Virus record (IMG/VR): IMGVR_UViG_3300042565_001917
Coordinates: 1 to 37,401 of that record
Source: a virus
DNA length: 37,401 bases
Reading direction: 5' to 3' (one strand)
This document shows positions 1-37,401 of this stretch, one piece after another. Each line of letters begins with the position of its first letter. The first letter of the stretch is position 1. The position numbers were made by a program, and so were the translations under genes. Under the pieces are notes generated by a model that worked only from the letters and a program-made list of their open reading frames with translations, made no database searches and had not been told where the DNA came from.

Positions 1-37
1 CCGACGTCGCGCTGCCCGAGCTATAGAGCAGCAGCAT
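1..37 (-). CDS. 5' fragment of the low-complexity virion protein gene (cut by window edge)
   Basis: Twelve codons starting at ATG 37 encode MLLLYSSGSATS and run off the window edge. They match the start of the complete 175-codon gene at 36328-36855, except that the CTG run after the ATG is two codons shorter here. If the genome is circular this is the same gene in a variant genome. The sequence gives no independent function. Confidence 0.7.
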   Translation of the reverse strand, partial: MLLLYSSGSATS

Positions 38-39
38 CG

Positions 40-204
40 TCAGCCCAGCGACTCGATACGCGCGATCGTCTGCTCGGTGGATAGAATGTCCGCGTCGATC
101 GCGCTCACGCGCTCGAGGTCGCCGACGCTAGCCGCGTGCGACCGCTGCAAGCCTAGCGTCGCAAGCCGGTTTCGTAGAATGCGCAGGACCTCTTCAATCG
201 ACAT
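40..204 (-). CDS. Small helical phage protein, 54 aa (copy A)
   Basis: Unknown function. The frame can be extended upstream, but ATG 204 is chosen because GAGGAG lies four bases before it, overlapping the stop of the preceding gene. The 54-residue product (MSIEEVLRILRNRLATLGLQ...) is predicted helical, with heptad-like leucine and isoleucine spacing that suggests a short coiled coil. A second copy at 36858-37022 differs by two conservative changes near the N-terminus (I to L, V to I) among many silent changes, which shows it is translated and under purifying selection. Its place between tail-fibre-region genes suggests a virion or assembly accessory. Confidence 0.75.
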   Translation of the reverse strand: MSIEEVLRILRNRLATLGLQRSHAASVGDLERVSAIDADILSTEQTIARIESLG

Positions 205-212
205 GGCGCTCC

Positions 213-1832
213 TCACACAAGCGGGATGAGCTCTTGGCACAGCGTGGACGCGTGCGATTGGAGCAAGACGATCGAGTATTTGTCGGTCCCGTCGATTGCC
301 GCATACGCGGCCATGCGCCCGCCGAGTGCAGCTGTCCCGGTCTGAATGAAGTCGGTCGCTGTGTACGGAGAGAACACGCGATTTTTAGCGTCGAATCTGA
401 AGATCTGATTCAGCGCTGAAGCGGTGTAGACGTTGACGTACGTGTAGCGACCCTCTTGATCTGCCGGCGCCGGAGCGCCCGTAGTGCCAGTGCCGAAGGC
501 GTTGACGTTGCCGTCATACGTAATCGCGCCGGTCCACGTGCCAGTGATCGATCCAGCGATGTCGAGGACGTCTAGAGTGACCGCGCCGCCGCGGAAAAAG
601 TACTGGAAAGAATGCCGCGCAAAGCGCCCTGGGTCTGGCTGGATTCCGAAGCTCGGAGCCCACAGACATCCCGCCGCGTTTGCAGCTGGGGCTGCGCCGA
701 AATACGTGGTGGACCAAGCGTCCGCCGCGATGCTGTTCGTCCCGTTGTTGATCGTGGCGTCGGAGTAGTTGTACGTGTACGTCGTTGTGTTCGCAGTCGT
801 GCGGAGGATCGCGATGTTCGGATTCTCGATCACGAACTTTGCCGACGTGCTTGGAGTCGTAGTCCACGCCGCGCCGAGTGTGTAGACGGCACTCGGTCCG
901 GCGGTGTGCGATGCGATGATCCTACGCTGCCCCACCGCGGCAGACGTAAGCGTGTCCTCGACAATCCGGATCTGAAAGTTGCGGTACTCGTTCGCAGTTA
1001 CCGCAGCGTCGCCGCCGCTTGCTCTGCCCGTGATCGTGCTCGCGCCCGATCCGGTAGCGGTGATCGCAAAGCGACTTCCACCGTCAGAGTCTGTGTCGTG
1101 CCCGCCTTTGATAAAGCCCTCGCCGGGCTTGTTGTCATACGGGACGTATTGCTCATCGAGGCAGATAGCAGCGCTATCAGTCGAGAGTGTCGCCGGGAGA
1201 TTGGCGATAGAGCGGTTCGCGAGCGTGTTTGACGCGGGCTCGAAAGACCGGAAAGCGCCCGCCGCAAGCGTGCCGCTACCGAGCATGAGGAGTCGGCCGC
1301 ACAGGATCTCGTACCTAGCAGACGAGCCAGGCGTGAATGTGAGCGCGGTGTCAAGACGGATTGTCGGAGTCGTGCCCGAGCTATTGCCTACGATCCAGCG
1401 CTCTTCGGTCTTACCAGCAGTCCCGTCGATCACTCGGATTCGGAATCCAAGCTCGCCGCTTCCGCCTCTGTTTGCCAGCATGTTCACGCCAACCGCAGTC
1501 GGCAGCGCGGTAGTCAGTGCAAACGAAGTCGTCGTCGCGCCGGTCGGATTGATCGTCCCGACGGCTCCAAAGCTCGGCGCGAAAAAGCTCGTGGCGCCAG
1601 CGCCAAACGTGCCCGCGGTGAGCGGATTCGCGATTGCCGTCTGCCAGGCTTTGGTGACGATGTTGTACCGATTCAAAACGGCGTTGCTGGCAAGCTGGTA
1701 CACAAACGGATTGCGCGTCGAGTCGTTGCGATGATCCGCGGAGAAGCCCTGAGCCGCGGCGGCCGCGGTGATCGAAGGCGCGACTTGCGCCCACATCATG
1801 CGATCGATGACCTTCTTGAAAGTGTTCGCCAT
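213..1832 (-). CDS. Large tail-region structural protein, 539 aa (probable tail fibre/surface protein)
   Basis: This is the largest gene of the distal tail block and lies two bases after the preceding gene's stop. The protein is rich in Thr, Ala, Gly and Ser, as is common in virion surface proteins. Two segments, about residues 129-176 and 285-336, look like copies of one beta-rich domain: each starts with an F-x-I-R-I/V motif, passes an E/Q-R-W/R-I core, and ends with S-A-R/K-Y/F. There is no signal peptide or membrane segment. The last ~123 codons recur at 37031-37401. Function is inferred from position and composition; it could be receptor binding or a tail-tip decoration. Confidence 0.7.
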   Translation of the reverse strand: MANTFKKVIDRMMWAQVAPSITAAAAAQGFSADHRNDSTRNPFVYQLASNAVLNRYNIVTKAWQTAIANPLTAGTFGAGATSFFAPSFGAVGTINPTGATTTSFALTTALPTAVGVNMLANRGGSGELGFRIRVIDGTAGKTEERWIVGNSSGTTPTIRLDTALTFTPGSSARYEILCGRLLMLGSGTLAAGAFRSFEPASNTLANRSIANLPATLSTDSAAICLDEQYVPYDNKPGEGFIKGGHDTDSDGGSRFAITATGSGASTITGRASGGDAAVTANEYRNFQIRIVEDTLTSAAVGQRRIIASHTAGPSAVYTLGAAWTTTPSTSAKFVIENPNIAILRTTANTTTYTYNYSDATINNGTNSIAADAWSTTYFGAAPAANAAGCLWAPSFGIQPDPGRFARHSFQYFFRGGAVTLDVLDIAGSITGTWTGAITYDGNVNAFGTGTTGAPAPADQEGRYTYVNVYTASALNQIFRFDAKNRVFSPYTATDFIQTGTAALGGRMAAYAAIDGTDKYSIVLLQSHASTLCQELIPLV

Positions 1833-15048: not shown

Positions 15049-15082
15049 ACGATGCTCTTCCTCTCACGCGCACTGTGCGCGA

Positions 15083-15155
15083 TTGCGACGGCGGGATTCG
15101 AACCCGCGTATTCGGATGTATGAGATCCGATGGACAGCCACTATCCCACGCCGCT
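15083..15155 (-). tRNA. tRNA with CAT anticodon (Met or Ile2), lacks encoded CCA
   Basis: The minus strand folds into a cloverleaf. The acceptor has six pairs plus an A-A mismatch at 1:72. The D arm is GGAT/GTCC. The anticodon stem CGGAT/ATCCG carries the seven-base loop CTCATAC. The variable loop has five bases, and the T arm is GCGGG/CCCGC with loop TTCGAAT. The discriminator is A and no CCA follows. The anticodon is CAT, so the product is elongator Met, Ile (if modified by TilS) or initiator-like. The 1:72 mismatch recalls initiator tRNA, but the anticodon stem lacks GGG/CCC. One extra base lies between the D and anticodon stems, which a tRNA finder should score. It sits inside the structural operon. 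Confidence 0.8.
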
Positions 15156-15157
15156 AG

Positions 15158-22164: not shown

Positions 22165-22642
22165 CGTCTATACCCCTATTAGCCTTCATATCGTAGCAGT
22201 TGCGTTAGCGCTACGAGCACAGGACGCAATACGCCGCCCGCCCGGCGAGCCCCCGCTCGGCCTCTGCTGCGTCGTCTCGCTCTGGACCCGGCCCGCGGCA
22301 TCACAGAGCGGCCGACTAGCGCCGCATGCGCCGGTCGCGTCCCGGCTCTATACTCGCATCCCCGTCCCTGTGTCAGCTCGCGCTGAGCGCGATTATCCCG
22401 CGACGGTCTACCGCCGGGGGTCCGGGCTACTCTCCGAGCTCGAGGCCGCCCCCATGACTGAGCGTAGGGCGAGACGAGCCCGGCAGAGATCCCACGTGCC
22501 GCTATATGCGATCCCAGCGGGTACCGGATGTGCGGGGCGCCGGATCGGCACAGACACCACGTGTGTCCGCTGTCGCAGTCCGGCGCTAGTCCGCTGGGTC
22601 GTCGGGGACCCCGCCGAGCGGATGACGCCCGGCCCGACGATG
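22165..22642. other. 478-base stretch without a firm gene
   Basis: Both strands have short open frames here and neither is convincing. The minus frame 22408-22668 overlaps the RHH gene. The plus frame from ATG 22454 is listed separately at low confidence. The inverted repeat CGTAGC ... GCTACG occurs at about 22193-22216. TATACT, a good -10 hexamer for plus-strand transcription, lies at about 22346-22351 but without a clear -35. This may be a promoter-rich control region between small early genes. Confidence 0.5.
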
Positions 22643-23345: not shown

Positions 23346-23376
23346 ACTATATATGTCGCGGCGTTTATCTTTGCAA
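23346..23376 (-). promoter_or_regulatory. Sigma70-like promoter, cassette 1
   Basis: Minus strand: -35 TTGCAA (23376-23371), 17-base spacer, -10 TATATA (23353-23348), or TATAGT (23351-23346) with a 19-base spacer. A TCGTCGCGACG(G) site lies just upstream of the -35 and a related GTCGCGGCG lies within the spacer. The leader carries the palindrome CGGGC-ACGGA-GCCCG before the AGGAG of the 70-codon gene. Confidence 0.6.
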
Positions 23377-23379
23377 GCC

Positions 23380-23424
23380 GTCGCGACGATTATTTTTCAA
23401 CTATTCTGCAAGTGTCCGAAAACA
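23380..23424. repeat. Direct repeat unit 1 of the promoter cassettes (with 3' remnant of an HTH gene)
   Basis: This ~45-base unit is a diverged copy of 23806-23850 (about three-quarters of positions identical). On the minus strand it reads as the tail F-S-D-T-C-R-I-V-E-K-stop followed by TCGTCGCG, mirroring F-P-E-T-Y-K-V-V-E-K-stop at the end of the 199-codon gene. It looks like a duplicated gene end plus control region rather than a live gene. Confidence 0.65.
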
Positions 23425-23775: not shown

Positions 23776-23803
23776 ATGATAATCGTCGCGACGAGAAACG
23801 CAA
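23776..23803 (-). promoter_or_regulatory. Sigma70-like promoter, cassette 2, with operator-like palindrome
   Basis: Minus strand: -35 TTGCGT (23803-23798), 16-base spacer, -10 TATCAT (23781-23776). The spacer contains the perfect 12-base palindrome TCGTCGCGACGA (23783-23794). A one-mismatch copy (23805-23816) lies directly upstream of the -35, overlapping the stop of the 199-codon gene. Arrangement matches cassette 1, so the same repressor probably binds both. Leader palindrome: CGGGC-ACGGA-GCCCG at about 23748-23762. Confidence 0.65.
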
Positions 23804-23805
23804 GT

Positions 23806-23850
23806 CGCCGCGACGATTATTTTTCAACTACCTTGTAAGTCTCCGGAAAC
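23806..23850. repeat. Direct repeat unit 2 of the promoter cassettes
   Basis: This copy includes the real 3' end of the 199-codon gene (coding V-V-E-K-stop) and the start of the following control region. The shared core includes ATTATTTTTCAACTA, repeated at 23389-23403. Confidence 0.65.
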
Positions 23851-24416
23851 GTTGCGGATTCTAGCGCCAGCCTCTCCACTTCTTCGTACGGTACCGCGCG
23901 TCGGCGACTGACGCGCACCGTGCGGATCTCCCCGCGGCGCGCCGCGGCGCGCAGCTCATCTACGCTCCGCCCGAGCACGCCCGCCGCTTGCTCTATAGAC
24001 AGCGGCTCGTACGTCGGCGACGCACCCGCGTCGTCTGCTAGCGCGCGCAGAGTAGCCGCCGCCTCCGCCCACGACGGGCGCAGCCCGTCTAGTAGCGCGA
24101 CGAGTCTCCGCGCTCGCTCTGTAGCGTCCGCGGCGGTGCTCGACTCTCTAGTCTGCGTCTCGCGCCACGCGGCGCGCGCGCGCGCCGCTATCAGCGCGTC
24201 AGAGCACGCGTCGAGTACCCACACTCGAGCCGCCGCCGAGTCTGCAGCGGCGTCGAGCTCGGGGTGCCCATCGCGCTCCGGTGCGCGAGCCCACGGCGTC
24301 GGGTCCGGCGTCCAGTCTGCGCCGCGGGACACTAGCGTGCCGCGAGGCCCGACGACTAGGCCGAGATACCGGACGCGCTCAAGCCGCCACGCCAGCGAAT
24401 GCGGATCGGCGATCAC
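23817..24416 (-). CDS. HTH protein (excisionase/MerR-like C-terminal domain), 199 aa
   Basis: The last ~60 residues form a helix-turn-helix of the excisionase/MerR-type: L-S-I-E-Q-A-A-G-V-L-G-R-S-V-D-E-L-R, then R-R-G-E-I-R-T-V-R-V and a strand-turn into R-A-V-P-Y-E-E-V-E-R-L. The first ~130 residues are helical and Ala/Arg-rich, perhaps for oligomerisation. GTG 24416 overlaps the helicase stop as GTGA. It could be a transcription regulator of the downstream cassettes. With no integrase in the window, an excisionase role is unlikely. Confidence 0.65.
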   Translation of the reverse strand: MIADPHSLAWRLERVRYLGLVVGPRGTLVSRGADWTPDPTPWARAPERDGHPELDAAADSAAARVWVLDACSDALIAARARAAWRETQTRESSTAADATERARRLVALLDGLRPSWAEAAATLRALADDAGASPTYEPLSIEQAAGVLGRSVDELRAAARRGEIRTVRVSRRRAVPYEEVERLALESATFPETYKVVEK

Positions 24417-26050
24417 CGCGCGCCGTACCGCGCGAGCAGGTCAGAGCTGGGCCTCCAGCCGTGAGTCGCTAGATAGTCCATGATCGTGCGCGCATCGTCG
24501 AAAGTCACATCGCCGCGAAGGCCCGCGCGGATCAGCGTTTGTGCCTGCTTGATCGTGCACAAGCCCTCTCGCCGGCGCCGCGTCGCGTCCGCGAGCTTTT
24601 CGCTCGCGCTTCTCACTGTCTCGCGAGCGGAGACCGGCACTCGCATCGCTTCGAGTCGTGCGATCTGGTCTGGTCTGGCTAGCGGCACTCCCGACGCGTA
24701 AGCGCCTGCCGACACGCCGCATACAGAATCGACTGTCCACATCGATCTGTCGATCGCGCGGTAGCTAGCGCGCGCTTGCACAGCCTCGCGCTCCGCACGA
24801 TCGCGACGCTCCGCGAGCTTGCGTGCGTCCTCCGCCGCGCGCTCTTTCGCTTTCGCGCGTGCTTCGAGCATCGTGGCGCCGCCGGCGAGCTCTTCCGCGA
24901 TCAGCCTCGATGGCACCGAGTCCAGCTCGCCGCCGTCGAAAATGTCGACCACGTGAGCAAGATCGTGGCGCGTGTTTTTAGGGTGGAAGTCGAGCACGAG
25001 GCAGTCGGTCTTTCCCGGCGAGAGACGCGTGCCGCGCCCGACCATCTGAGCATATAGGGCTCGACTCTGCGTGGGCCTCGCGACTGCGACGCACGCCGTG
25101 GCCGGGGCGTCGAAGCCCTCGGTGAAGAGCGCGCAATTGACGAGGAACTGCACGTCTCCGCGCGAGTAGTCCTCAATCGCTTTCGCGCGCGACTCCGGGT
25201 CAGTGGAGCCGTCGAGGCTGCGCACTTTTGAAGCGCCGACATATCCGGCGAGCACCTCTGCTAGAGCATGTGCCGTTTCGACGCTGGGCATAAAGACCAG
25301 AGTCTTCCGATCGCCCGCCTCTCCAGCGAGCGGCGCCGCGATAGCGTGTAGCGGCTCGAGGCCTTGCATCGCCTTCGCGATGTCTTCCGCGGACAGATCG
25401 CGCCCGTGCTCTTGTCGAGTCGTGCGCACGCTGTCGAGCGATACGCAGTCGAGCGGTATGAGCCGCGAGCGCACGTCGCACAGATACCCGCCGCGCACGC
25501 CGTCGAGGATCGTCATCGTGTATGCGGTCGAGTCGAAGACGCCGCCGAGCGCGACACCGTCGCCGCGGTCCGGTGTCGCGGTGACCCCGAGCACGACGGC
25601 TTCGCCGAATCGATCGAGTATGTCTCGGTAGAGCGACGCGGTAGCCCGATGAGCCTCGTCAATCACTATCAGCGAGAAAGCGTCGCGCGGCCATTTTTGC
25701 AGGCGCTTCCCGCGTAGTGTCTGCACTGTAGCGACGACGGCAACCGATCCGAAAAGCGCGCCGAGCACGCTTGCTTTTTTGTCGCCGCTTTCGATCTCGA
25801 CCGCGCATCCCGTGGCTTCGAGTCGCGCCGCCGCTTGCGCCACAAGCTCGATTCTGTGAGCGAGTACGAGCGCGCGCCGGCCCGTTTGTGCGTAGTGCCG
25901 CCGGACGATCTCGGAGAAGACGGTGGTCTTCCCGAGCCCGGTGGCGAGGACCAAAAGCGTCTTTCCTCTGCCCGCTTCCCACTCTCTTTCGACGCTCGCT
26001 ATCGCCTCGACTTGGTACGGCCTCAGATCATGCGCCTCTACTCTCGACAT
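24413..26050 (-). CDS. SF2 DEAD/DEAH-box helicase, 545 aa
   Basis: From M at 26050: L-R-P-Y-Q-V-E-A-I (Q-motif-like), Walker A A-T-G-L-G-K-T-T (36-43), D-E-A-H (131-134), T-A-T-P (157-160), then in domain 2 Q-M-V-G-R-G-T-R (motif VI). This is a DEAH-type restriction/replication helicase of the type III res/UvrB-like group common in phages. The ATG at 26050 has AGGAG with five-base spacing, so the longer frame (to 26158, GTG start) is doubtful. The C-terminal ~190 residues carry helical extra sequence. It likely supports replication or recombination, unwinding DNA with ATP. Confidence 0.85.
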   Translation of the reverse strand: MSRVEAHDLRPYQVEAIASVEREWEAGRGKTLLVLATGLGKTTVFSEIVRRHYAQTGRRALVLAHRIELVAQAAARLEATGCAVEIESGDKKASVLGALFGSVAVVATVQTLRGKRLQKWPRDAFSLIVIDEAHRATASLYRDILDRFGEAVVLGVTATPDRGDGVALGGVFDSTAYTMTILDGVRGGYLCDVRSRLIPLDCVSLDSVRTTRQEHGRDLSAEDIAKAMQGLEPLHAIAAPLAGEAGDRKTLVFMPSVETAHALAEVLAGYVGASKVRSLDGSTDPESRAKAIEDYSRGDVQFLVNCALFTEGFDAPATACVAVARPTQSRALYAQMVGRGTRLSPGKTDCLVLDFHPKNTRHDLAHVVDIFDGGELDSVPSRLIAEELAGGATMLEARAKAKERAAEDARKLAERRDRAEREAVQARASYRAIDRSMWTVDSVCGVSAGAYASGVPLARPDQIARLEAMRVPVSARETVRSASEKLADATRRRREGLCTIKQAQTLIRAGLRGDVTFDDARTIMDYLATHGWRPSSDLLARYGAR

Positions 26051-26111
26051 CATATCTCCTCGCCGCGACGCTACGCGGCTGCCTGTCGTCGTCTTTAGCC
26101 CATCCACACGA

Positions 26112-26690
26112 TCACGGTGCACCACGTTTCCACCTTGCAAAGTCAGCTCCGCCGCCACGAGGCACGCCGCGTCTCCACGTGGGCTCCTGGTACGACGCCC
26201 ATGGCATGCGCCTCACGATCGACTCGTCGCACACGGCAAGAACAGAAGCGCGTGTTGAATCCTCGCGCAACGGGAAGACCCAACGGTCTTTCGGCTCGCT
26301 CTTAGTTTTCCCGTCCCACGATCCGCCACCTGTCGGGGGCGGTCGGAGCCGCTGCCACGTAGGAGCCCACAGCCACCCGCACGCACGGTACAACGCCCCG
26401 TCGTGACCGACAGATGGGTCCGAGTAGCTTACAACTGTGGTCGTTTCCGGGTGTTGCTCTGCGATCCATCGCTTCACGCGCGCCCACTGCCGAGCTCCTG
26501 CGTTGGCCTGCGAAGGCCGTAGCAGACACCACCGTTTGAGCTCCACCCACGACGCCGGGAGCATGCGCGACGATGGACGCCCGATGACCACGATCCCGTG
26601 CTCATCTGTGTACCGCTTGCCTCCAATCTCTCCGAGATAGTGAAACGCGTCGAGCGCGCTCGGCGCGTCATGGAGCAGCCGCAGCGTCAT
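26112..26690 (-). CDS. GNAT-fold protein, Mom-like candidate, 192 aa
   Basis: ATG 26690 overlaps the RuvC-like gene's stop (ATGA), so the longer frame is dropped. The product carries F-H-Y-L-G (16-20), I-V-V-I-G-R-P-S-S-R (33-42), a W-V-E-L-K-R-W-C block, and V-S-Y-S-D-P-S-V-G-H-D-G-A-L-Y-R-A (87-103), a layout seen in phage GNAT-like/Mom-type proteins. Mu Mom uses a GNAT fold to carbamoylmethylate adenine in DNA. The C-terminal part has a W-V-F-P-L segment and ends in a Gly/Arg-rich tail. The enzymatic product is not shown; DNA modification is inference from fold and methyltransferase neighbour. Confidence 0.6.
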   Translation of the reverse strand: MTLRLLHDAPSALDAFHYLGEIGGKRYTDEHGIVVIGRPSSRMLPASWVELKRWCLLRPSQANAGARQWARVKRWIAEQHPETTTVVSYSDPSVGHDGALYRACGWLWAPTWQRLRPPPTGGGSWDGKTKSEPKDRWVFPLREDSTRASVLAVCDESIVRRMPWASYQEPTWRRGVPRGGGADFARWKRGAP

Positions 26691-27178
26691 CGCTTCCCCG
26701 CGATCTTCGCGATCTCCGCGCTGTGCTGCGCTCCCCACAGCGCGATTAGCACGGCCTCCGCCTCGTCATCACTAGCCACCGCGATCCCGCGACCGCTACA
26801 CGCGAGCATCGACTGCGCTTTCCACGCGTCCGACGTGAGTCTGTGCCTACCGATCATCGCGGCTCGCCACGTGTACGGCTCGACACCGATGCACAGCCGG
26901 CGCGGCACGCCCGCAAGCTCGAGCGCCTCAAGCCACCGACCGCGCGCGTCACCCATTCCTAGTATCGTCGCGGGATTCCAATGCCGCCCGCCGCCGACAG
27001 TGTGCGCTTCGTAGACAGCCGCCAGCGGCTCGCCGAGTGACACGGCCCGCGCGATCACATCGCGCCGAGCCATCGCGCCGCGGACAGTGCCGCTCTCAAT
27101 GATCTTCGCCGCGCCGTGTGCACGCCGCGCGATTGCCCATCCGCTCGTAGCCGCTTGATCGATTCCGAGGACGATCAC
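26687..27178 (-). CDS. RuvC-like Holliday junction resolvase, 163 aa
   Basis: The RNase H-like RuvC pattern is visible: G-I-D-Q-A-A-T-S-G-W (Asp7), V-Y-E-A-H (Glu57), and S-D-D-E-A-E-A-V (Asp137/138 with Glu141). Length and order fit phage RuvC-type enzymes that resolve branched DNA before packaging. It overlaps the methyltransferase stop and the next gene by four bases each. It probably acts on intermediates made by the plus-strand recombination operon. Confidence 0.75.
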   Translation of the reverse strand: MIVLGIDQAATSGWAIARRAHGAAKIIESGTVRGAMARRDVIARAVSLGEPLAAVYEAHTVGGGRHWNPATILGMGDARGRWLEALELAGVPRRLCIGVEPYTWRAAMIGRHRLTSDAWKAQSMLACSGRGIAVASDDEAEAVLIALWGAQHSAEIAKIAGKR

Positions 27179-28056
27179 TTGTCATCTCCCATCGATAGCT
27201 GCTCTCGCGGTGACTCATCCACGTCGAGTCGCATTCGTAGCTGCGGGCGCGCCGCAGCGAGTCGCTTGCATGCAATCGCGAAGCGCCCCGGATCTGGCTC
27301 GCATCCGATCGCGCGCCGCCCCAGCTCCACCGCAGCGACGAGCGTCGTGCCCGCGCCCATGCACGGATCGCACACGAGATCGCCTTCGCGCGAGTAGTCG
27401 CCGACGATCGCGCGCATGAGCCAGAGTGGCTTGCCGCCAGTGACGTCCTTGCGCTCCGACGGTCCGACGTACGCGCCTGGCAGCGGCGTCGCGCCGCGTG
27501 TCGCGCGCGCTTCGATCGTGGCCCACTTCACCCATTCGCTAGAGCGCGGTCGCGACACGACTAGCCACGTGGCCCATTGCGCAGGCCCGTCGCCTGTCGA
27601 ACGGAACCGCGATCCGGTCTCGACACACGCAAGCGGCGAGAACGCGTAGCGGTAGGCGTCTTCCATCGCGGCCGCCCAGGCGGCATAGAGAGCGTGGTCT
27701 GTGAGCGACGCAATCCAACCTCGCGTGAGCTGGTTCCAAATCCCTACGAACGACTCGACGTCCGCCGCCGCCCACGCGGCATAGTCGATATTGCGGCGAC
27801 CTTTCTGCGGAGTTCGTTTGCTCGGGCGGCCCTTGTATAGATTGACCATTTCCACGCCGACATCGTGCCCCGCATGCGTGCGCTCCGAATACGGAGCATC
27901 CACGACCAGCGCGTCGACCATCACGCCCGCCGTACGCAGCGCGGCCGCGAGCGTAGCGTGGTCGCATTGAGCGACTACGTAGTGCTCGCCCACCTCGACG
28001 CGGTCGATATGCGTGCACGCTCGCTCGACGTCCTCGAGACTCGTCAATCGGCGCAT
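27175..28056 (-). CDS. Beta-class DNA methyltransferase (N6-adenine or N4-cytosine), 293 aa
   Basis: The catalytic motif IV is D-A-P-Y (53-56), replacing the usual D/S-P-P-Y, and motif I is D-P-C-M-G-A-G-T-T (230-238) with the adjoining G-C-E-P-D-P (251-256) for AdoMet binding. Motif IV before motif I is the beta-class order. Target adenine versus cytosine cannot be decided from the sequence. A conserved W-A-A-A segment lies between. The P-to-A change in the catalytic motif is a small departure. It may protect phage DNA from host restriction. No partner endonuclease is adjacent. Confidence 0.85.
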   Translation of the reverse strand: MRRLTSLEDVERACTHIDRVEVGEHYVVAQCDHATLAAALRTAGVMVDALVVDAPYSERTHAGHDVGVEMVNLYKGRPSKRTPQKGRRNIDYAAWAAADVESFVGIWNQLTRGWIASLTDHALYAAWAAAMEDAYRYAFSPLACVETGSRFRSTGDGPAQWATWLVVSRPRSSEWVKWATIEARATRGATPLPGAYVGPSERKDVTGGKPLWLMRAIVGDYSREGDLVCDPCMGAGTTLVAAVELGRRAIGCEPDPGRFAIACKRLAAARPQLRMRLDVDESPREQLSMGDDK

Positions 28057-28504: not shown

Positions 28505-28709
28505 CGTCGCCTCCAATCTTGCGGAGGTTGTCTAGCTCGGCCCACGCCTCGTCGCGCTCCTCGATCACCGCGAGCACGTCGGCGAGTCCGCATACGTACT
28601 CGAGCCCGCGTGCGTGCCTCCGCTCCATCGCTGCGATCCATCGGCGCTCGTCCTCTCTTCGGTACTCGCGCCGCATCCATCGAAGATCGTCCTCTTTATG
28701 ACCGCTCAT
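28491..28709 (-). CDS. Small charged helical protein, 72 aa
   Basis: ATG 28709 overlaps the stop of the Ala-rich gene (28706) as ATGA. The product is full of Arg/Glu/Asp (RREYRREDERRWIAAMERRH) with a predicted long coil and ends KIGGDDGAR. Unknown function. The charge pattern is typical of small phage early proteins that bind a host protein, but nothing specific can be inferred. Confidence 0.5.
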   Translation of the reverse strand: MSGHKEDDLRWMRREYRREDERRWIAAMERRHARGLEYVCGLADVLAVIEERDEAWAELDNLRKIGGDDGAR

Positions 28710-29329
28710 CGTCCCGCCTCCGCTTCCGCGATCTCTCGCTCAATCGCGTCGAGCACGCCCGCGGCGATACGATCCGCCGCCGCACGCGTCGCCGCCAGCG
28801 CTGCATCCGCCGCCGCCCCCGCCGCCGCGTACGCCGCCGACGCCGCCGCCGCCCACGCCGCCGTTCGCGCCGCCGCCGCCGCCCACGCCGCATTCGCGAC
28901 CGCCTCGCGGTCGCTCTCGGGAGCGCCGCGGCGGAGCCAGCCGAGCACGCCGTCGATCGCTGCGAGCGCAACAGCATCGTCGCTCGCGTGCATACGGGTC
29001 TCCTCGACGATCGCGAGGAGCGCGCCGACCTTTGCGCGGTCCCACGCTTCGCCGTCAAGCACATGCCATCGCCGCGCGAGCGATGCATACCGCCGCACGA
29101 CACCGGGCCACGCGTGCTCGCTCGGAGCATCGTCGAGCCACGGAGTCAGATAGGCGAGCCACGGAGGCATGACCGCCGCGGGACACGCGGCGGCAGTCTG
29201 CGCTGCGCCGGCCTCTGGCGATAGCGCGGCCAGCAGGCACGCGCGGCCGTGGCCTGCGGTCCACTTCTCACGGATCAAGCGCCCTTCCGCGATCATCGTG
29301 TCGAGTCTGTCGACTCTCTCACTGTCCAT
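28706..29329 (-). CDS. Alanine-rich repeat protein, 207 aa
   Basis: The chosen ATG 29329 follows the sigma/zinc gene's stop region; the longer frame from 29440 overlaps that gene by 122 bases. The N-terminal half has W-T-A-G-H-G-R-A-C-L-L-A-A-L-S-P, M-P-P-W-L-A-Y-L-T-P-W-L-D-D-A and R-R-Y-A-S-L-A-R-R-W, motifs that I link to a phage family of unknown role. The C-terminal ~70 residues are extremely alanine-rich, with W-A-A-A repeats, expected to be helical. Some Ala-rich repeat proteins of this style are annotated as immunity proteins, but that label would be a guess here. Confidence 0.6.
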   Translation of the reverse strand: MDSERVDRLDTMIAEGRLIREKWTAGHGRACLLAALSPEAGAAQTAAACPAAVMPPWLAYLTPWLDDAPSEHAWPGVVRRYASLARRWHVLDGEAWDRAKVGALLAIVEETRMHASDDAVALAAIDGVLGWLRRGAPESDREAVANAAWAAAAARTAAWAAAASAAYAAAGAAADAALAATRAAADRIAAGVLDAIEREIAEAEAGR

Positions 29330-30047
29330 CGCGCAACCCAGTCCCGCCACAAGCGCTGCACTCGGCTCGATACGAGCCGTCCACGTCCTCGGCAGTCTCG
29401 TCTCCCGAGCCGCCGCAAGCGCGGCACTCCGCGATCTCACTGTCGTCTGGCTCGAGCCTGTAATCGCCGATGTCGATCACTCCGCACCTCTCGATCGCGG
29501 CACTCAGCCGCTCTACCGTCGCCTCTAGTACCGCGACTGCTCTTTCTGCCGCGAGCGTCGCCTCGCTCGGCTCCTGCGCGTCTACCCGTGCAGCGATCCG
29601 CGCCTGTCTTTCCTCGCCGTCTACGCCCTGCCGCAGATGCGGCGGCTCGGGATCTCCGGCGCCGTCGCCGGGACGTCCGCGCGAGAGCCACGCGACGACG
29701 TCTCGCTCACGGACGCCGTCAAGCGCTAGCAGCGCCGCGATCTTTTTGAGCGCCTGCGCCTCGAGCGTGCGCGCACGCTCGCGAGTCACCCCGAGATATG
29801 CGCCGACGAGCTCTAGTGGCATCCCGTCGGGATGCGCCGCGACGATCGCTTGCGCGTCGGGGTCGTCGGCGTAGCGCGTAAAATGGCTGATAGCGCCATC
29901 CGTGCGGCGCATCGACTGCGCCTCGAGCGGTAGCGCGCACGCCTGCTCGCGCGAAAGACCGCGGGCCATCATCGACTCCAGGTGCCGCTTCGCGCGCGCT
30001 TTGTCAGCTCTAAGTTTTGAGACGAGTCCTTCGCCGATAGTGATCAC
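29319..30047 (-). CDS. Sigma70-region-4-like protein with DnaJ-type zinc motif, 242 aa
   Basis: Residues ~76-106 read M-P-L-E-L-V-G-A-Y-L-G-V-T-R-E-R-A-R-T-L, then E-A-Q-A-L-K-K, which match the C-terminal sigma70 region 4 (V-T-R-E-R-I-R-Q-I-E-A-K-A-L) that reads the -35 element. The C-terminus carries two C-x-x-C-G-G-x-G units (C208-C211 and C230-C233), the zinc motif of DnaJ. Region 2 is not seen, so it is not a full sigma factor. It probably redirects or anchors host RNA polymerase. It overlaps the small HTH gene by four bases and is second in the operon. Confidence 0.7.
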   Translation of the reverse strand: MITIGEGLVSKLRADKARAKRHLESMMARGLSREQACALPLEAQSMRRTDGAISHFTRYADDPDAQAIVAAHPDGMPLELVGAYLGVTRERARTLEAQALKKIAALLALDGVRERDVVAWLSRGRPGDGAGDPEPPHLRQGVDGEERQARIAARVDAQEPSEATLAAERAVAVLEATVERLSAAIERCGVIDIGDYRLEPDDSEIAECRACGGSGDETAEDVDGSYRAECSACGGTGLRDGQ

Positions 30048-30241
30048 GACTCACCTACCAGCGCCCCGATGGGACAGTCGAGCACGCGGGCAAGCGTCGC
30101 GAGATCGTCAAGTCGCGGTGATACCGCGCACGTCTCCCACGACCGCAGAGTCGCGATCGTCACGCCTGCGTGCGTCGCGCACTGCTGCTGTGTAAGCGAG
30201 GCGCGCAATCGTGCCTCGCGGATTCTATCTCCGATCCTCAT
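30044..30241 (-). CDS. Small HTH_3-type (Cro/CI-like) regulator, 65 aa
   Basis: The product has a classical XRE helix-turn-helix: R-I-R-E-A-R-L-R-A-S-L-T-Q-Q-Q-C-A, then H-A-G-V-T-I-A-T-L-R-S-W-E. ATG 30241 is chosen over the longer frame to 30349 because GGAGG lies four bases upstream and the short form is a complete domain. It is the first gene of the long minus-strand early operon, behind the best promoter in the window. The short size resembles Cro. An operator-like inverted repeat overlaps the promoter -35. Confidence 0.75.
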   Translation of the reverse strand: MRIGDRIREARLRASLTQQQCATHAGVTIATLRSWETCAVSPRLDDLATLARVLDCPIGALVGES

Positions 30242-30257
30242 CGTACCTCCGATGCGA

Positions 30258-30286
30258 CGTATACCGGACCGCGCGCAGTCTGTCAA
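30258..30286 (-). promoter_or_regulatory. Strong sigma70 promoter for the early minus-strand operon
   Basis: Minus strand: consensus -35 TTGACA (30286-30281), exact 17-base spacer, -10 TATACG (30263-30258). The predicted start is only about 10 bases before ATG 30241, with a Shine-Dalgarno (GGAGGT) in between. The inverted repeat CCGCGC (30269-30274) / GCGCGG (30287-30292) overlaps the spacer and the edge of the -35, so a repressor could cover the promoter. The opposite strand serves the plus-strand operon, making this a divergent control region. Confidence 0.8.
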
Positions 30287-30310
30287 GCGCGGCATGTCGT
30301 GCTCAAAAAG

Positions 30311-30347
30311 TTGCGCTCGATTGCGTTGCTGAGTACGACTAGCGGTC
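30311..30347 (+). promoter_or_regulatory. Candidate promoter for the recombination operon, plus strand
   Basis: TTGCGC (30311-30316), 17-base spacer, TACGAC (30334-30339), which is a poor match to sigma70 consensus. Predicted start would fall at or very close to ATG 30348, and no Shine-Dalgarno precedes that ATG, so a leaderless transcript is possible. Confidence is low; the divergent arrangement is clear, the exact promoter is not. Confidence 0.3.
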
Positions 30348-30602
30348 ATGCGCAGATACGATCACGGCCCCGGCGACGAGCTGTCGCCCGCTGAGATGGA
30401 GGAGTACGTGGACGACGACGATATGACGATCGGTGAGCTAGAGACATCCCTCGCGCGGTATCGCGTGTCTGATCTGCGCGTGCGGCGCATCGAGGGCGTT
30501 TGGTACGCAGAGAGCGACCGGCTCATCGCCGCTGGCGAGGGAGGCACGCTGCTAGCTGCTATCGAGTCGCTGCTCACTCACGCAGACGAGCGGCTGTGGT
30601 AG
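30348..30602 (+). CDS. Small acidic protein leading the recombination operon, 84 aa
   Basis: It starts at ATG 30348, on the opposite strand to the small HTH gene and near the divergent promoter. The protein is acidic (ELSPAEMEEYVDDDDMTIGE) and helical. No family is recognised. GTG of the YqaJ-like gene overlaps its end by seven bases. It may be a regulator or accessory of the recombinases. No Shine-Dalgarno is visible before the ATG. Confidence 0.55.
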   Translation: MRRYDHGPGDELSPAEMEEYVDDDDMTIGELETSLARYRVSDLRVRRIEGVWYAESDRLIAAGEGGTLLAAIESLLTHADERLW

Positions 30603-36338: not shown

Positions 36339-36855
36339 CGCCCTCCACTAGCACGGCTCTTCCTTCGTAGAGCACCATTGTCGTGCGCATGCTCTTTTCC
36401 ACGGTGACTGTTCTGCTGTCAGACCCGACGACTCTGACGCGCGCCTCTGCGTCTACCGCTGTCGTCCTACTCTCTGAGCGCACGCGAGCCGTGTACGAGA
36501 CCGACGTCGAGACGGGCTCGTACACGCCGAGCACTACAGACGAGCCAGACGTCGACCACGCGGCGGCGTACGTCGAGGCGCCGACAGAGGACGTGACCGA
36601 CGAGCCACCAGATGACCACGCGGCGGCGTACGTCGAGGCGCCGACAAAGGCCACGGCCGCTGCGCCAGACGACGACGCGACTGCGCTGGACACCGACCCA
36701 GCGGTAGACCCTACGCCCGACACCGTAGCGGTGCCGGATGATGACGCGCTGGCCGCCGCGGTAGATGCCCCGACGCCCACGACCGACGATGTGCCGTCGG
36801 CGGCTCCCGCGCCCGACGTCGCGCTGCCCGAGCTATAGAGCAGCAGCAGCAGCAT
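36328..36855 (-). CDS. Low-complexity Gly/Ser/Ala virion protein, 175 aa
   Basis: After a leucine run (MLLLLLYSS) coded by CTG repeats, most of the protein is Gly/Ser/Ala/Val-rich with repeated V-G-A-S-T-Y-A-A-A-W units, two of them encoded by a 60-base tandem repeat. The C-terminal ~65 residues are more normal and charged (EPVSTSVSYTARVRSESRTT...EGDDE). It looks like a collagen-like or flexible virion surface protein. The first 12 codons recur at position 37-1, with a two-codon length difference in the leucine run. Confidence 0.7.
   Translation of the reverse strand: MLLLLLYSSGSATSGAGAADGTSSVVGVGASTAAASASSSGTATVSGVGSTAGSVSSAVASSSGAAAVAFVGASTYAAAWSSGGSSVTSSVGASTYAAAWSTSGSSVVLGVYEPVSTSVSYTARVRSESRTTAVDAEARVRVVGSDSRTVTVEKSMRTTMVLYEGRAVLVEGDDE
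36541..36660. repeat. Tandem repeat, two 60-base units, in the low-complexity gene
   Basis: Units 36541-36600 and 36601-36660 share an identical 33-base core (36554-36586 and 36614-36646). They encode the repeated A-S-T-Y-A-A-A-W block. Such repeats can expand or shrink by recombination, changing surface protein length. Confidence 0.8.
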
Positions 36856-36857
36856 CG

Positions 36858-37022
36858 TCAGCCCAGCGACTCGATACGCGCGATCGTCTGCTCGGTGGAT
36901 AGAATGTCCGCGTCGATCGCGCTCACGCGCTCGAGGTCGCCGACGCTAGCCGCGTGCGACCGCTGCAAGCCGAGCGTTGCGAGCCGGTTTCTTAGAATGC
37001 GGAGTATCTCTTCGAGCGACAT
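36858..37022 (-). CDS. Small helical phage protein, 54 aa (copy B)
   Basis: Second copy of the 40-204 gene, starting at ATG 37022 with GAGGAG four to five bases upstream overlapping the preceding stop. It starts MSLEEILRILRN rather than MSIEEVLRILRN; otherwise identical in protein, with many silent changes. If the window is circular, this and the 40-204 gene are the same locus in two variants. Confidence 0.75.
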   Translation of the reverse strand: MSLEEILRILRNRLATLGLQRSHAASVGDLERVSAIDADILSTEQTIARIESLG

Positions 37023-37030
37023 GCAGCTCC

Positions 37031-37401
37031 TCACACAAGCGGGATGAGCTCTTGGCACAGCGTAGATGCGTGCGATTGGAGCAAGACGATCGAGTATTTG
37101 TCGGTCCCGTCGATTGCCGCATACGCGGCCATGCGCCCGCCGAGCGCGGCCGTCCCGGTCTGGATGAAATCGGTCGCTGTGTACGGAGAGAACACGCGAT
37201 TCTTCGAGTCGAATCTGAAGATCTGATTCAGCGCTGAAGCGGTGTAGACGTTGACGTACGTGTAGCGACCCTCCTGATCTGCCGGCGCCGGAGCGCCCGT
37301 AGTGCCAGTGCCGAAGGCGTTGACGTTGCCGTCATACGTAATCGCGCCGGTCCACGTGCCAGTGATCGATCCAGCGATGTCGAGGACGTCTAGAGTGACC
37401 G
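37031..37401 (-). CDS. 3' part of the 539-codon tail protein (copy B, cut by window edge)
   Basis: This frame encodes the last ~123 residues of the protein at 213-1832 and ends at the same place (...QELIPLV). Among several base differences only one residue differs in the compared part (R-F-D-S-K-N instead of R-F-D-A-K-N). The 5' part lies beyond the window edge. Confidence 0.85.
   Translation of the reverse strand, partial: VTLDVLDIAGSITGTWTGAITYDGNVNAFGTGTTGAPAPADQEGRYTYVNVYTASALNQIFRFDSKNRVFSPYTATDFIQTGTAALGGRMAAYAAIDGTDKYSIVLLQSHASTLCQELIPLV

Follow-up and report, generated by a model that had tools for sequence, protein, structure and literature searches.

P0001, a 242-aa protein encoded in the window (the whole stretch of viral DNA analysed here, 37,401 nt), is probably an early-expressed DNA-binding regulator of phage transcription, with a standalone sigma-70 region 4 as its core; most likely it regulates phage transcription and is not a sigma factor. 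It is best read as an atypical regulator of the sigma-region-4 type, either an activator or a Q-like antiterminator. The gene, its parts and its neighbours are as follows.

30044..30349, minus strand: XRE/Cro-type HTH regulator directly upstream of P0001, with a 4-nt overlap
29319..30047, minus strand: P0001 ORF, 242 aa, GTG start (ORF and translation); N-terminal helices, sigma region-4 HTH, Pro-rich linker, predicted coiled coil and C-terminal double CxxCGGxG
29739..29852, minus strand: residues 66-103, matching sigma-70 region 4 (25.8 bits in Pfam; also fold matches)
29565..29717, minus strand: conserved central segment, residues 111-161, WLSRxRPGDGxG...DGEERQxRIAARxDAQEPS (alignment with the homologue in the related phage G004)
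29484..29564, minus strand: predicted long helix, residues 162-188 (low-confidence model)
29337..29426, minus strand: zinc-type knuckle pair, residues 208-237 (C208, C211, C230 and C233; cysteine pattern)
28706..29329, minus strand: gene downstream of P0001, N-terminus MDSERVDRL, with an 11-nt overlap
24413..28056, minus strand: early cassette downstream of P0001, encoding an N6/N4 methyltransferase, a RuvC-like resolvase, a Mom-like protein and a ResIII helicase

The P0001 gene is real, as its G+C contents at codon positions 1, 2 and 3 (0.76, 0.53 and 0.74, respectively), its overlaps with the genes on both sides, a homologue in another phage, and the identical sequence in two further assemblies (stretches of 4.0 and 8.5 kb) indicate. 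In the early operon it comes second, following the XRE regulator. The gene downstream, at 28706..29329, has a homologue at another place in G004.

Sigma region 4 of P0001

The first-pass annotation had recognized sigma region 4 from the residues VTRERARTL (87-95) and EAQALKK (96-102); our profile search verified this call, since Sigma70_r4 (PF04545) matched residues 66-103 with 25.8 bits, above the curated Pfam cut-off of 24.1. The nearest PDB sequences to P0001 were those of sigma-A region 4. In the alignment, P0001 keeps, as R89 and E90, the RE of sigma-A region 4.2 that contacts the -35 element. Thr94 stands where the recognition helix of sigma-A has Gln, and the G004 homologue has SRQR, so that -35 recognition may be lost.

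Residues 55-125 were modelled from four sequences (pLDDT 70). The top Foldseek/VIA chains were mostly sigma region 4, with E-values above 0.1 and Z up to 6.9, and the lists also contained other HTH chains (NarL and DosR). Because the E-values exceed 0.1 and Z stays under 8, these matches are supportive of a sigma region-4 fold rather than proof of it. The full-length predicted structure was set aside as a basis because of its poor quality (pLDDT 47). Binding of P0001 to -35 elements or RNA polymerase, as originally proposed, is plausible from the modelled fold.

Zinc-type tail and central segment

Two CxxCGGxG motifs, C208/C211 and C230/C233, are located at the C-terminus of P0001, as had been noted at first reading. 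The double CxxCxGxG occurs only once across the six frames of the window and in none of 2000 shuffles of P0001. The four cysteines form a plausible pattern for zinc and may bind it. The central zinc domain of DnaJ (PF00684) and anti-TRAP (PF15777) contain CxxCxGxG knuckles as P0001 does; however, P0001 falls under the curated cut-offs of both models and has only one knuckle pair. Since DnaJ_CXXCXGXG (PF00684) scored 18.7 bits on P0001 against a cut-off of 32.7, the earlier term "DnaJ-type" holds as a resemblance of the knuckles and not as membership of the family.

The homologue in G004 is 44% identical to P0001 over residues 10-187, keeping region 4 and the central segment, and stops short of the zinc tail. 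The best-conserved stretch of P0001 lies outside the HTH, at residues 111-161, and identity between the two proteins reaches 70% over residues 111-164. Residues 162-188, with the heptad spacing V171-L174-V178-L181-I185 read from the sequence, could possibly form a coiled-coil dimer.

Related phages

A scan with the terminase identified four related phages (G003, G004, G005 and G006). In G004, the P0001 homologue sits between a methyltransferase gene and a RusA-like gene, with overlapping codons. The terminases of G003, G005 and G006 are 66-75% identical to that of the window and their structural genes are largely colinear; no P0001 homologue was found in these three phages, G006 being a 29-kb record that may be incomplete. 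Weak region-4 matches in G003 and G005/G006 were rejected as MerR/excisionase-type HTH (antisense or elsewhere) and XRE HTH.

Searches of named phages and of plasmids with P0001 or the window gave no match. Scans of viral contigs with P0001 or its alignments returned only the same three records, and a scan with region 4 added two region-4 proteins. Genome-collection scans with P0001 and with the terminase detected no prophage, and the helicase scan gave no match.

A wider group of standalone region-4 proteins

By profile comparison, P0001 is similar to a large, unnamed group of proteins encoded by other uncultured phages. Isolated region-4 matches over the cut-off were present in 10 of the 46 records of phages with related terminases, some of them complete sigma factors, and a recurrent protein among the ORFs of those phages carried RPCP[FW]VxCxxHL ahead of region 4. 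A scan seeded with five such proteins revealed 162 encoded relatives in uncultured phages, 80 of which were fetched (loci L129-L208). Against a profile of the standalone region-4 proteins, built on an automatic alignment, P0001 scored 33.9 bits over residues 71-154, the scoring part being in the HTH.

Like P0001, the proteins of this group combine a region-4 HTH, lacking region 2, with a Cys/His motif in one protein; however, their motif is of another type and precedes region 4, whereas in P0001 the knuckle pair is C-terminal and a coiled coil is predicted. P0001 has no CP[FW]VxC..H motif before region 4, where C37 is the only cysteine, and CxxCxGxG was found in none of the 80 fetched proteins. 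For representatives of the group, searches of Pfam, NCBIfam and PHROGs gave no specific model, and the named phages gave no match. The CPFVSC proteins are probably common in myxobacteria. TerL was encoded on the same strand as the region-4 gene in all 18 loci where TerL was found, which are not all independent; at L185, L203 and L205, TerS-TerL directly follows the region-4 gene (TerS being assigned by position and size).

We tentatively raise, as a doubtful extension, the idea that P0001 and the standalone region-4 proteins constitute a widespread class of phage transcription regulators that pair sigma region 4 with differing metal-binding modules and redirect host RNA polymerase. The modules would then be gained and lost as add-ons to sigma region 4. 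If this were true, uncultured phages would hold a large class of transcription regulators combining region 4 with a metal-binding module, missing from the models of Pfam, NCBIfam and PHROGs and from the isolate phage collection that we searched, and the class would provide a handle on gene control in such phages and on sigma region 4 working alone.

P0001 as a probable transcription regulator

The reading of P0001 as a regulator is based on its region-4 profile match above the cut-off, the nearness of sigma-A region 4 in the PDB, the fold matches, and the retention of R89 and E90. It is also based on the score with the standalone group, some members of which are directly upstream of TerS-TerL like known late regulators, on the place of the gene in the early operon after an XRE regulator, and on the phage late antiterminator 21Q, which has a sigma-region-4-like fold (PMC6606751). 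The fold of 21Q and the position of the Ltr regulators, at the end of the early operon and immediately before the promoter under their control (PMC13123087), are precedents for antiterminator and activator roles alike.

As a regulator, P0001 would dimerise via the coiled coil of residues 162-188, place the recognition helix of region 4.2 on a phage promoter, contact RNA polymerase through the beta flap and/or the host sigma, and so activate or antiterminate part of the phage's transcription. A contact with protein or nucleic acid might be stabilised or tuned by the zinc knuckle, which would be dispensable for the core role.

Promoters and candidate DNA elements

According to the first-pass annotation, the promoter of the late genes could not be identified with host rules. 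We located weak host-type matches upstream of the late genes, such as TTGACG-17-TAGCAT (22668-22640), so that a lack of host-type late promoters cannot be taken as given. Host-like matches were also present close to the two 51-nt repeats (23373 and 23800); since promoter-like sites numbered only 3, compared with 1.0 expected in shuffles, no promoter is established either.

As possible targets of P0001, we considered the repeat at 23373/23800 and the palindrome TCGTCGCGACGA. The palindrome is a weak candidate, with a count of 4 against 1.5 expected, which was reached in 5 of 100 shuffles. The 51-nt direct repeat (84%; 23373-23423 and 23800-23850) is located in front of small genes and carries an AT-rich block, GTTGAAAAATAATCG, with sigma70-like hexamers after it. 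A conserved noncoding dyad, CCGCTGGGAYCGCATATAGCGGCACG, lies on the minus strand at 22499-22520, approximately 950 nt upstream of the TerS candidate, and is also present in G004 (L106:8822) and G003 (L104:1354); it is a possible cos/pac or late leader element.

Alternative functions

One alternative, the late-gene switch proper, is that P0001, as a standalone region-4 factor, activates the promoter of the terminase/structural operon in the manner of RinA/Ltr. These small phage regulators are proposed to work at promoters of the host RNA polymerase. Their pre-terminase position is shared by the wider standalone family in some phages, its members lying directly upstream of TerS-TerL in those cases, and the same-strand TerL in all 18 (non-independent) loci points the same way. 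However, P0001 is encoded approximately 8.6 kb upstream of TerL, near the beginning of the early operon; Ltrs, by contrast, occupy the end of that operon, beside their promoter (PMC13123087). G003, G005 and G006 show no P0001 homologue, although G003 has the conserved element upstream of TerS, and a search of the genome with the RinA model (TIGR01636) gave no match at E up to 10. The absence of a homologue from three relatives leaves a general late-gene switch without support, and the early position of P0001 together with its absence from near relatives argues against an obligatory one. The earlier statement that P0001 switches transcription to the late genes is thus weak, the G004 homologue also lacking the zinc tail, and we consider a role of this kind unlikely.

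A non-transcription DNA-binding role also fits P0001, since its neighbours are DNA modification and recombination genes. P0001 would then be an accessory of the methyltransferase/resolvase/helicase cassette, with the region-4 HTH serving solely to hold DNA. Recombination and modification genes adjoin it both in the window and in G004 (methyltransferase and RusA-like), and its best-conserved part is residues 111-161 rather than the HTH. Elsewhere, however, region 4 is characteristic of transcription proteins, and the adjacency of genes in an early operon of a phage is weak evidence that they function together; such an accessory role is improbable in our judgement.

An antiterminator of the Q type would bind near a promoter, join the paused RNA polymerase and read through terminators. 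The likeness to 21Q (PF06530) would lie in its sigma-region-4-like fold (PMC6606751), and the zinc tail weakly matched a Q-like PHROG (E 0.12). However, the Q models PF06530 and PF03589 had no match in P0001 at E up to 10 or in the genome, the gene position differs from that of 21Q, being at the start and not the end of the early operon, and the homologue lacks the zinc tail. Q-like antitermination is therefore quite improbable for P0001.

P0001 shares with the sigma-70 family factors (PF04545) the region 4 profile and, as the model suggests, perhaps the fold, but lacks region 2 and the other sigma regions of those factors. Region 2 (PF04542) was not found in P0001 by the Pfam profile search, and Sigma70_r2 had no match at E up to 10 in the whole phage window or in the four relatives, which extends the first observation that the protein has no region 2. 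On these profile results, P0001 is not a complete sigma factor and has no visible split-sigma partner. A split sigma factor of the SigO-RsoA kind (PMC8103513), with P0001 as its region-4 half, would fit a protein with region 4 and no region 2, but is disfavoured by the missing region-2 partner in the window and the four relatives and is hardly credible.

Other features of the phage genome

The Mom-like DNA modification protein (26112-26738, minus strand) adjoins the RuvC-like resolvase and, together with a Mu-type portal, suggests Mu-like traits, with no transposase seen. A tRNA-Met gene is located among the late genes (15081-15156, minus strand). The ends of the window (1-583 and 36813-37401) are 95% identical across approximately 589 bases, which suggests that the window is a near-complete circularly permuted genome of approximately 36.8 kb with strain variation at the join.
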